Assembly (NCBI GenBank): GCA_033182465.1
Contig: CP137322.1
Location: forward strand, 1,426,001-1,490,000
DNA length: 64,000 bases
Direction: 5' to 3'
DNA from: Sanghuangporus weigelae
Taxonomy: Eukaryota > Basidiomycota > Agaricomycetes > Hymenochaetales > Hymenochaetaceae
Part shown: one piece after another, positions 29,669 to 51,100 of the stretch
Position numbering within the stretch: position 1 is the stretch's first letter
Layout: each line of letters opens with the position of its first letter
Made by a program: the position numbers and the translations under genes
The notes under the pieces: generated by a model
The model's database searches: none
The model's input: only the letters and a program-made list of their open reading frames with translations
Told to the model about the DNA's origin: nothing

Positions 29669-31187
29669 ATGGCATTACCTGAGCCATCCATCCGCATTCG
29701 GGAGCTCAAGAAAGACAGAGTTAACTTCGTTCTTGAGAATGTCGACATTTCGTGAGTCCTTTAACTTCATGGAGTTGTCTAGAATATAAATTCACCATTG
29801 GTCAGATTTGCCAATTCTTTACGGCGTGTCATGATGGCCGATGTGCCTACTATCGGTATGCTCCATATAAATCCTGACTTGTTTCGTGGCTCAATATCGT
29901 TCAGCAATTGACATAGTTGAAATCGAGACAAACACTTCCGTATTGCCTGATGAATTTATCGCACATCGACTGGGAATGGTCCCGCTTGTGAGCAAAAATT
30001 GCGACGAATCAATACGGTACAATCGAGTATGTCGTATTCCTGTCTCATCCTCTCCAACCTCTTACTAATGAACTTTAAGGATTGTACATGCGACGAATAC
30101 TGTGACTTTTGCTCGGTGAAGTTATTGCTGAACGTGTCGTGCACGGAAGGGAGCGGAAATCTTGACGTTACAAGCGAGCATCTCGACGTTGTTCCTCCGG
30201 ACTATGCCAGGATAGCAGAGAGTATTGATGCTGGTGACGAAGTTTCGAAACGCTCAGAAAAGTTCGGACATCCAGTGGGACAAGGTTAGTCTCGCTGCCC
30301 TCTTTCTTGCGAGAAGACACAGATAATGTTTCTTCTTTCCAGGTGATGCATCCATCAATCCGGTGCTGCTCTGCAAAATACGAGCAGGACAGGAAATCAA
30401 AGCGAGATGCATCGCGAAGAAGGTCACTGCTTTGTTTCGTCATTGTTTGCCCGTTGAATTGACTCTCTGCAGGGAATTGCGAAAGAGCACGCAAAATGGT
30501 CACCTTGTTCAGCAGTTGCTTTTGAATACGACCCACACAACAAGCTACGACATACGTCTTATTGGTACGAAGTGGACCCGAAAGCCGAATGGCCGCTCAG
30601 CGAGAATGCGAAAGAGGAGGAACCGCCACGGGAGGATGAGCCTTTCGACTTCAACGCTAAACCGGAAAAGTTCTACTTTGAGGTAGAGACTGTCGGGAGC
30701 CTGTCGCCGTCGGAAGTTGTCTTAAAGGTCAGTCATGTCCGCAGAAAATGACACGCAAAAGCTTATAACAGACACGTAACAGGGCATTTCCGAGTTACAG
30801 TTGAAATTGGCGAATTTGATTCTGGCATTGAAACCGGCCGATGCTATGTTTGACGCCGGAGGAGCTACGCAAGTGAACGGACACGACGCTGCTGTTGGTA
30901 ATACCTGGGGAATGGCAGGTACTAATCTCGCGACTAGTACGAATGCTAATGCTGGATGGGGAGGCGCAAGTCCACGGAACGCAGACGCAAGCTCTTGGTC
31001 TGCCTCAGCGGGCTCTGGCTCTGGCTCTGGCTCTGCCGGATGGGGTGGCGCTTCACCTGGAGGGTGGGGTTCCGGAGGTGCAAGTTCAGGGTGGGGTGGT
31101 GCTTCGCCAGGGTGGGGTCAAGGAGGTAGCCCTAGCGGATGGGGAGGGACAAGTCCGAACCGTACTGCTAACGGATGGAATGTATAG
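29669..31187 (+). CDS. RPB3: RNA polymerase II subunit Rpb3 with Gly-Trp repeat tail
   Basis: Rpb3 is the alpha-like assembly subunit of RNA polymerase II and pairs with Rpb11. The start [20 protein letters not shown] continues into [20 protein letters not shown], the alpha-motif for dimerisation, and [20 protein letters not shown]. The zinc-binding loop [10 protein letters not shown] (near 30082-30112) keeps all four cysteines. The remainder follows the family through [18 protein letters not shown] and the C-terminal dimerisation helices ([15 protein letters not shown]). After that the usual tail is replaced by about 110 residues rich in Gly, Trp, Ser and Ala with repeated GWGGASP units. Six or so short introns are inferred. 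The core is certain; the tail is read in the same open frame as the last dimerisation helix, with no intron needed. Confidence 0.95.
30954..31178 (+). repeat. GWGG(A/T)SP repeats in the RPB3 tail, with a (GGCTCT)4 tract
   Basis: Imperfect protein-coding repeats give seven Gly-Trp pairs within about 75 codons: [38 protein letters not shown] and GWN. Inside lies a pure hexamer tract, (GGCTCT)4 at about 31011-31034, coding for Gly-Ser pairs. The repeats have diverged at the DNA level, so they are not a recent simple expansion, apart from the hexamer tract. Confidence 0.85.
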
Positions 31188-48143: not shown

Positions 48144-51100
48144 ATGCATGCATCGCCATCATTGCCTAGTCAACGGTGCGCATCATGTTTTAAACGTCTT
48201 CCCTGTAATGCATCATTTATACCTCAAACAGGGACTCTCCAGCAAATCAGGTCGACTTCCCTCGTATGCGACTCTATCTGCTTTTGTCCTATTTCTCACC
48301 TCATTAACATTTCCTATCATTCTTATTGCAGAACTCTTCAACTCTCCGACTCCGACCCAAGCTTCTTCTTCTTCTTCTCAACAAAAGGCGCAACAGCAGT
48401 CGCCAGAAAGGCCCTCGCAGTCGCATACCCCTCTTACTCCACCTCTTACTCCAGCGTCTTCTGCTTCTGTGTCGGGTTCTGGATTTGTCAGCGGCGGAGA
48501 AGGTAACATAGCAGCAAGTAACCTGAGTTTGAGCGCGTTCTCTACCCCTGCGAGGGGACCGGCCGCGCCGCCTCCGACTCCTGCTTCTGCCGGTTTGTTA
48601 TCTCGCCCGGACTTGACGACTTCGCATATGGGGCCACCTTCTCCTGTCGCCGTCGGTACTACCTCAGGCATGAACAGCGGAGCAGGAAATAGATGGCCCG
48701 CTCCGTCCGAATCGCGCCGCATGCGACCACTTCCTCATCGCCTTGAGGTTGGTAGCATTGGAAGCGTCGGTTCGCCTCAGAGCGAGAGAAGCGGACGCAG
48801 CGATCTGGAGAGGGCACTTCCTGATGTCGATCGCGTCGTTGCTGACTTTAGATCTGCAGACGCGAACATGAGGGATGGCACTTCAGGCGGGGAGAGATTC
48901 TTACTTGTATGTCGGTTTCTGAGGCACTTCACTTTGGACTTGCCGATCATCGTTAATTTAGGTCGGGAACATACCAAAAGATGCTACGGAAGAACAACTT
49001 CGAGATGCTTTCGGTGTACGTAATGTATCCCCTGTTCAAGAATATTTCTCGGGTTTTTGACATATTTTCTTAGTCACTCGGGGATATAAGAGGAACCTGC
49101 GTTCGTTTCCAGGAAACTGAGGGCATTATAATCCTTGCGTTTTTCGATTGCCGTTGTACAGTGGATGTTGAGCAGAAGATACTCGCTCCTGGGCAGATCT
49201 ATTTCGGCGGGCGCAGGCTTCGTGTAGAGAGAATGGGATCAGCTGCTTTGACAAGGGTTTGTCGTTTTGCCTCGTTGTCTTAAGTTTATTGCCGCTGACT
49301 TTTTATTTGAAATTGAAGCTTATGGGAGACGATGAGTTCGTCAATGAGACGGAAGGCGAGGTGGTCGTGACAGCAGATGGAAACATAGACGCAAACTCGC
49401 TTCAGTCAATCATCAGCAGCTTTGGAGAGTTGCGCGCCTTCAGCCAGGCGACTCTTCCAAATGGACAGGTAAGATTGCTTTGGATGCAAATCCTTCCAAT
49501 CCATTGATATTAACAGTAAATTTCAAGGCATATATTGCAGAGTTCTGCGACTGCCGCAACGCCAAATCCGCTATGGAAGCTCTCAACGGACGTAGCATCT
49601 TCGGTATCCGACTTTGTCTTATCCCTCGACACGCTGCACCCGCAGACCTGACAGGCCGCATTCCCTTCCCGCTGAGTTCGGATAATACAAGGCAAATCGG
49701 ACGTGGAGGGTCACAACCGACATCCCCACTTGCCTCGAACAATTCCTTTGCACGCATGTATCCTGACGGTTTCTCCTTGTCTTCTCATCAAGAGCATCCG
49801 GCGGAAAGGAATGAGGCGAGCATCAGCGCTGATACGTCCAATTCGAGTCCCTTCCATGGTTCGCGCGCATTACCACTTGTTTCTCCTCTTTCGCATTCGC
49901 ACTCCATTACTTTACATGCCGGCGGTAGTCGGCGTATCTCAACGGGCTCAGTCAGCGTGCTTCCGGGATTGCATCAGAGTACGAGCGAGCAAGACTTGAG
50001 AAGGCGTGCAGCGGTGAATAACGTGTCAGGTATCAATTCGCGAGATGGATGGATTACCGACCACGCAAGGCGAACGAGCGACACGTTCTGTTTCGATGCC
50101 CTCAGGCGGGTTGCAGGTGACCTTTCCGGTAATGTTACACAAGCTGTACACGGAGGAATGGGTAATTTGGCGCGTCCGAGGACACGTGCGATTAGCGAGT
50201 CGAGCGCGTCTCCGAGGGTCGTTTCGCCGAGCGAAGGGTTTTCCACCGCTGGAATGGACGTTGGTCTGCCTGGGCAGATGTCTTACAATGAGCCGTCTAC
50301 CTCAGAACATAGCACGAGTAACGGCGCGTCGAGTTATTATCACGAAGACCGTGATCGGGAGAGTGAGCCGGAGCATAGCACGCATGTACACTCTCGCATG
50401 CCGACAGCCAGTGACTCGTCGCTCGGCGGACCGCATACACCACCTCCAGGACCGGTATCGTACAATGTCGCTCCCTACTATGCGAACTCTCCTTCTGTGC
50501 TTGGAATTCCTGGTATGCTGGCGCCGCCTCATCATGGCACAGGGCATTGTTATCTCGGATCTCCTCTCGGTGTGGCTACGAGTCCTGCGGGTATGCGCTA
50601 CGGGTACTCTCCGCAGAGTGCCGGGTACAGTCCCGGAGGACTGAGTGTTCACTCCGCCGTATCTTCGCCTTCCTCGCTGCATTCTCCATCTCATGTGTCT
50701 GTTCTATACTCACCTTCGCATCCCATGCATGCACAGTTGCATTCCTCCGCACGCAGTGCTCTCGATGTAGTTCGCGACCCGCCTTCGGAGCGCAACCAGA
50801 TAGACTTGGAGCGCATTGCTGCGGGTCTCGATACGAGGACGACGGTGATGATCAAAAACATTCCGAATAAGCTATCGGACAAGGACTTGGTTGAGTACAT
50901 CGGTCGTGTGTGTCCTCGCAAGATTGACTTCTTGTATCTGAGAATGGACTTCCAGAATGGTGAGTGCACAGGCGTTGTCTTGTTCTCATGTTGATACTTA
51001 GTCGTTTGTCTGCAGGGTGTAATGTTGGCTATGGTATGCGAGACTTTGCTAGATTCATTCTCGCTTTCTGACGTTTCGTTAGCGTTTGTGAACTTCATCC

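Follow-up and report, generated by a model that had tools for sequence, protein, structure and literature searches.

The window analyzed here, a stretch of 64,000 nucleotides from Sanghuangporus weigelae (contig CP137322.1, positions 1,426,001 to 1,490,000), carries the gene for RPB3, a core subunit of RNA polymerase II (Pol II), which ends in a long tail of Gly-Trp repeats (Table 1). Its exons were spliced by hand, with GT-AG introns of 49 to 58 bases and an open frame throughout, and the resulting protein scored over the Pfam cut-offs for both RNA_pol_L (76.3 bits) and RNA_pol_A_bac (61.9 bits). The presence of both the Rpb3/Rpb11 dimerisation domain and the insert domain identifies it as the Rpb3 of Pol II, and its best relatives in the PDB are solved fungal (yeast) Rpb3 chains, with a best E value of 2.4e-87. 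The last exon completes the dimerisation helix and adds a tail of 112 amino acids that contains nine Trp residues, and the RPB3 tail with its Gly-Trp repeats is a real feature of an intact gene. Elsewhere in the window, an open frame at 49348-50994 has a region rich in Ser and Pro, followed at its end by the initial part of an RRM_2 domain.

Table 1. Position of the RPB3 gene and of the features of its C-terminal tail (window coordinates).
Feature	Position	Strand	Basis or detail
RPB3 gene	29669..31187	+	7 exons, 399 aa
RPB3 exons	29669-29751, 29806-29855, 29905-30026, 30080-30284, 30343-30422, 30473-30727, 30783-31187 (stop included)	+	
34-residue linker that follows the dimerisation helices and includes one TWG (Trp codon 30906)	30849..30950	+	Translation
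Gly-Trp array	30951..31184	+	Translation, shuffles
Starts of GW pairs in the array	30954, 31038, 31062, 31089, 31110, 31137, 31173	+	
Single SW in the array	Trp codon 30996	+	
Stretch with four GWGG[AT]SP units (starts 30954, 31038, 31089, 31137)	30954..31157	+	Codon list, DNA repeat families D1/D2
(GGCTCT)4 run, Gly-Ser spacer	31011..31035	+	Tandem Repeats Finder, 4.2 copies, 100% matches

The original prediction had described seven Gly-Trp pairs in about 75 residues, set in a Gly/Ser/Ala background, and its coordinates and count are correct: positions 30954-31184 translate to 77 residues with 7 GW and 6 WG, followed by the stop codon (31185-31187). The composition agrees as well, as the array counted with its preceding Ala comprises 78 residues, among them 8 Trp, 26 Gly, 17 Ser and 11 Ala, and includes 6 GWG. 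The array had also been placed directly after the dimerisation helices, which is not the case, since 34 residues with a further TWG intervene. Successive Trp residues along the array are spaced by 13, 15, 8, 9, 7, 9 and 12 positions, and the protein terminates in NGWNV. Few residues of the array are charged (4%, with 1% acidic). Every proline of the flagged 77 residues (five of five) stands in a Ser-Pro pair; the tail contains GGSPSGW, and [ST]P followed by Trp within at most two residues occurs three times.

These motifs exceed what the composition of the array would produce. Residue shuffles (n = 100,000) had a mean of 2.66 GW pairs, with seven or more in 0.16% of them, and at least six GWG arose in 0.001% of the same number of shuffles. 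Of 50,000 shuffles, 0.026% had Ser-Pro at all five prolines and 0.18% had three occurrences of [ST]P near Trp, both motifs having been picked only after the tail had been read. One seven-residue word is present four times in the array with no more than one mismatch each; four such near-identical heptamers were found in 0 of 2000 residue shuffles and in 31 of 2000 first-order Markov sequences, so that the repetition is partly a product of neighbour bias itself.

Comparison of the repeats at the codon level speaks to their age. The four GWGG[AT]SP units, which were selected for protein identity, have a pS of 0.72, near saturation, and a pN of 0.14, itself partly due to the two separate codon blocks of Ser. 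Codons at shared residues of the four units are identical in 9 of 33 cases, and codons shuffled within the tail are no less alike (P = 0.26). Near-saturation at synonymous sites implies that the units are not a fresh DNA expansion, and a recent microsatellite expansion as the source of the GW units is ruled out on this ground. Of 2000 neutral simulations taken to an equal pS, none had a pN under 0.24 and the mean was 0.64, and all four unit Trp were retained in 0.15% of runs, though the low observed value is favored by the choice of units, because they were picked for agreement in protein. Across all six GWG sites, pS was 0.64 and pN 0.30, compared with 0.68 and 0.55 in the linkers around them (outside GWG) and with 0.66 and 0.60, or 0.61 and 0.64 (five sites), in two other linker registers. 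Random windows of the tail gave a pS of 0.78 and a pN of 0.61, and the pN of the six GWG sites was lower than in any of 2000 sets of such windows, a comparison with some circularity, given that GWG is what defines the sites. A fair reading is that the GWG units are old, some of them agreeing beyond GWG, and that the linkers wander within a Gly/Ser/Ala/Pro alphabet. The (GGCTCT)4 Gly-Ser spacer is probably a recent product of slippage.

Low-complexity drift, in which slippage and relaxed constraint left a functionless Gly/Ser/Ala/Trp tail, had been put forward in the original prediction as the simpler explanation. It describes the linkers around the GWG sites well, where pN is near pS, and can draw on the perfect hexamer run within the array and on the heptamers that also arose in Markov sequences. 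It is weakened by the GWGG[AT]SP residues that were kept despite near-saturated synonymous sites, an outcome of 0 of 2000 neutral simulations, albeit for units picked for their agreement. A further point against drift comes from the Rpb3 paralogue in the same genome, an RNA_pol_L match that we read as AC40, whose last exon is free of Trp. Drift of the whole tail is thus an explanation that we take seriously and consider unlikely.

Four other Rpb3 tails, all from solved structures, were available for comparison: three are fungal, all from yeasts, and the fourth is human. The tail of Saccharomyces cerevisiae ends in NTGSGGYDNAW and that of Schizosaccharomyces pombe in ..EMNWSPYQNGEENTW, with a final ENTW, so that both proteins terminate in N-[AT]-W. 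In Komagataella phaffii (PDB 5x4z chain C) the tail contains five Tyr-Gly units (TAYGG, TAYGG, TVYGR, TSYGG, TNYGD) and ends in YNAP plus one undisplayed residue; extending the query by a Trp at that place did not lengthen the alignment, so that this residue is probably something other than Trp. Human Rpb3 ends in QSDVLTIN and has almost no tail. With tail starts set by the analyst's choice, Trp residues number 9 in S. weigelae, 2 in S. pombe, 1 in S. cerevisiae and 0 in both K. phaffii and human, and Tyr residues 0, 1, 2, 6 and 0, respectively. Aromatic residues are therefore present in all three yeast tails, and an array is absent from two of them (S. cerevisiae and S. pombe). The K. phaffii tail resembles that of S. 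weigelae in its position on the same subunit and in its repeated aromatic-Gly units, but uses Tyr instead of Trp, spans about 40 residues instead of 112 and has no Ser-Pro. Its Tyr-Gly array raises the question of whether fungal Rpb3 tails are aromatic arrays in general. Used as a query against its own genome, the S. weigelae tail matched nothing but itself, and scans of prokaryote and viral collections returned no fungal relative; the sole relatives in them were 41 archaeal loci, which are uninformative on a fungal tail and were left aside. A search of the literature on Rpb3 with GW repeats, with a Trp tail or with Rba50 found no title on such a tail.

A second comparison is offered by the C-terminal repeats of the elongation factor Spt5. 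The S. pombe Spt5 tail consists of 18 copies of TPAWNSGSK, in which Thr1 is phosphorylated by Cdk9; an effector of these repeats is Prf1, the Rtf1 homologue, and alteration of the tail changes RNAi-dependent heterochromatin (excerpts of PMC10659198). In the S. weigelae genome, the Spt5 tail includes TPAW twice, TPSW, ASPQW and ASPKW, and its five instances of [ST]P near Trp were reached in 0.03% of shuffles. Both it and the RPB3 tail thus carry repeated Ser/Thr-Pro near Trp, in each case at the C-terminus of a protein bound to Pol II, but the RPB3 array sits on Rpb3 and has a GWG core, compared with TPxW in Spt5. We regard the shared grammar as suggestive only. The Pfam CTD family (PF12815) gave no match in the RPB3 tail, while the Spt5 tail of the same genome reached 22.5 bits, itself below the cut-off of 25.4. 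Membership of the RPB3 tail in the Spt5 repeat family is ruled out, given its location on RPB3, the presence of a separate tail on Spt5 and the lack of a PF12815 match. A Plus-3 domain, the reader of Spt5 repeats, was found once in the genome and under the cut-off (E = 1.2), and a role for an Rtf1 Plus-3 reader was dropped for that reason. The site of this match (C12:482500-487000, L051) has frames that look like RTF1 by eye.

We favor the explanation that the RPB3 tail gives Pol II a multivalent arm of aromatic stickers and spacers, akin to the CTD and perhaps phosphorylated, and we give it an even chance of being right, ahead of drift, then of docking to Argonaute, and last of a handle for polymerase assembly. 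The tail would be an enlarged form of the C-terminal arm carried by the fungal Rpb3 proteins compared here, with GWG stickers spaced by Gly/Ser/Ala linkers and five Ser-Pro sites among them. Tethered to the polymerase, it would most likely serve as a weak multivalent arm for docking or clustering, much as the repeat tails of Rpb1 and Spt5 do, with the Trp residues making the contacts and proline-directed kinases possibly tuning them. The model starts from what is observed, namely the sequence, the array, the agreement of residues among the four units against synonymous change and the aromatic residues of the three yeast tails; to these we add a presumably disordered tail, its putative phosphorylation and a partner that would bind it. 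Support comes from the excess of GW and GWG, the Ser-Pro statistics, the low pN of the units, the aromatic yeast tails, the grammar in common with Spt5 and the Trp-free last exon of the AC40-like paralogue. The case is weakened by the linkers, where pN is near pS, by the constancy of GWG at six sites, which holds by construction, by the lack of a Pfam match to the tail and the sub-threshold Plus-3 domain, and by a comparison of three yeast tails of which two have no array.

NRPE1, SPT5L and GW182 are proteins that bind Argonaute through GW/WG motifs, and the original prediction had suggested that the RPB3 tail might be a platform of this kind. Its Trp residues would insert into PIWI-domain pockets of a nuclear Argonaute, which would thereby be recruited to Pol II during transcription, by analogy with NRPE1 and SPT5L, which do so for plant Pol V. 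Part of this proposal stands: the repeats are real (seven GW in 77 residues), and the genome holds 34 exon-level Piwi matches and 19 RdRP matches, as a small-RNA reading would require. The tail also resembles the known platforms (NRPE1, SPT5L, SPT6L, GW182), as far as sequence likeness goes, in that a protein of the transcription machinery has multiple GW/WG within a region rich in Gly and Ser. Unlike them it gave no Ago_hook match, either as the whole RPB3 protein (E up to 1) or as the tail (E up to 10), although a second GW protein encoded in this genome comes near in one of its parts, and no family in all of Pfam matched the tail up to E 10; a match of the tail to Pfam Ago_hook is therefore rejected. 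It is also poor in charged residues, with 4% in the array against 19% and 39% in two trimmed parts of that other GW protein, encoded on C4.

One Argonaute of this genome, a putative partner, was aligned to human AGO2, onto which the pocket residues of Caenorhabditis elegans ALG-1 were mapped by what we take to be a constant numbering offset of 143. Joint replacement by Ala of K803, E838, P733 and F802 in ALG-1 abolished GW binding (excerpts of PMC5147811), and their counterparts in the aligned Argonaute are Leu, Ala, Pro and Leu, one of four kept, the Ala adjoining a three-residue gap. At the pocket-3 residues Pro700 and Cys691 (PMC9262622, in part), the proline is kept and the cysteine is replaced by Phe. 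Neurospora QDE-2 likewise differs at the ALG-1 and pocket-3 positions in the same alignment, which makes the missing residues a weak argument against docking; the Trp pockets of fungal Argonautes may be built differently.

Two or three Trp are enough for one AGO, and the plant Pol II elongation factor SPT6L has an AGO-hook; plant AGO-hook proteins carry tens of motifs compared with the seven GW of the RPB3 array (excerpts of PMC10991848). Each site in TNRC6 comprises at least two Trp that are ten or more residues apart (PMC9262622, in part). Neighboring Trp in the RPB3 array are 7 to 15 residues apart, and every second Trp would fit that spacing. Among the four fungi, the comparison of species with and without Argonaute that accompanied the original prediction goes partly its way, in that the Trp count falls with RNAi, from 9 and 2 in the two Argonaute-bearing fungi to 1 in S. 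cerevisiae and 0 in K. phaffii, which is not known to have an Argonaute. S. pombe has a single Argonaute (PMC10659198) and S. cerevisiae is without RNAi (PMC4778953; PMC5499181), all as given in excerpts of these sources; among basidiomycetes, Ustilago maydis and Cryptococcus deuterogattii are listed as having lost RNAi (PMC4778953). Against docking, the terminal Trp persists in S. cerevisiae despite its lack of RNAi, K. phaffii uses Tyr, and human has Argonautes yet almost no Rpb3 tail; four species are in any case too few to carry an inference from Trp number to RNAi. Docking of Argonaute on the tail seems to us quite improbable. The poor discrimination of the Ago_hook profile and the built-in constancy of GWG each weaken an argument, one on either side, and leave the ranking of the explanations as it was.

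The RNAi genes themselves have some features of note. Three Argonaute-like matches lie within 70 kb at C2:3221865-3290225, and the two that were read (L003, L005) show RAG in place of the catalytic RDG. The same two-piece Piwi match recurs with equal or nearly equal scores at C5:2744322, C8:256739, C9:1460395 and C13:1519847; at each of them one piece contains two TGA (stops or introns), and the four places look like copies of one element. The RdRP matches at C1:2694708 and C1:2699220, separated by about 4.5 kb, have almost equal scores and are probably a tandem pair.

The C4 protein is of interest in its own right. At about 996,311-998,052 on the minus strand of C4 (L040), a GW/WG-rich protein is encoded in two or more open frames. 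The first has 388 residues with 9 GW and 10 WG and the next 240 residues with 3 GW, and we infer that they belong to one gene (12 GW in total). Against Pfam Ago_hook, the 240-residue frame reached 23.1 bits, under the cut-off of 25, and the GW-richer frame (388 residues, trimmed to 356) matched no Pfam family, so that little can be concluded about a GW array from its failure to match this profile. A search of the genome with the PF10427 profile returned nothing, a result we distrust since the direct scan of the C4 frame gives 23.1 bits. The C4 protein and the RPB3 tail are alike in their GW/WG repeats, but the former has its 12 GW spread over two frames and is richer in charged residues. In the basidiomycete Cryptococcus, Gwo1 and Gwc1 are dedicated RNAi GW proteins (PMC4778953, in part), and Gwo1 is located with Ago1 in P-bodies (PMC6643885, in part). 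The C4 protein is a candidate GW182-like or Gwo1-like RNAi protein, and if this fungus has a dedicated RNAi GW protein, the C4 gene is likelier to encode it than RPB3.

The C4 protein came to light in scans of the whole genome. A pattern of three TGGGG gave 182 matches against 49 in a reversed control, and most of the matches listed fell into repeats of 17 bases close to the ends of contigs or into a dispersed repeat. A stricter GW pattern, which demands particular codons and so misses GW arrays written in others, gave 34 matches against 15 in the reversed control. Eleven of these 34 have three in-frame Trp and no stop: three lie in RPB3, one in the C4 GW protein and one in a minisatellite-like sequence at C6:2705951, and the other six are without a GW array inside the matched stretch. 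Tandem repeats of about 17 bases with GCACAGCCCTGGGG, at C1:1589-2061, C5:19978-20374 and near the starts of C3 and C6, are probably subtelomeric. A near-identical stretch of 71 bases starting with TGGGGCGAAATGATCTGCC is dispersed over C1:777187, C1:1001428, C2:930470, C2:1032997 and C3:2358895 and is probably part of a transposon. At C4 about 2,424,105-2,425,007 (L041 3106-4008), a further frame has a start that we read as WW-like and a long region rich in Gly-Tyr, Gly-Trp and Pro.

The least probable explanation, that the tail and chiefly its end Trp are recognized by factors that assemble Pol II, for instance Rba50/RPAP1 and Gpn2, fits the N-[AT]-W ends of S. cerevisiae and S. pombe Rpb3, the NGWNV end of the protein in the window and the action of Rba50 and Gpn2 on the Rpb3 subcomplex (PMC8136413, in part), but it is hard to reconcile with the end of K. 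phaffii Rpb3, where the last residue is probably not Trp, leaves the seven GW unexplained and finds no link of the Rpb3 tail to Rba50 or Gpn2 in the excerpts of PMC8136413.

Repeat tails of Pol II are the main known coupling of transcription to RNA processing and chromatin. We propose, as a doubtful extension of the sticker-and-spacer arm that we favor, that the Pol II of this lineage has, in addition to the Rpb1 CTD and the Spt5 repeats, a third CTD-like tail, on Rpb3, whose GWG stickers and Ser-Pro switches recruit partners, Argonaute being a candidate, to every Pol II, unlike the situation in plants, where a specialized polymerase is used. With an array rich in Trp, a core subunit would offer one more handle of this type, here in a fungus whose RNAi genes are numerous, and its Trp residues allow a clean mutational test of the tail. 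If the tail bound Argonaute, ordinary Pol II transcription would be joined directly to small RNAs; a general sticker arm would still be evidence that aromatic tails evolve on Rpb3 in a lineage-specific way.
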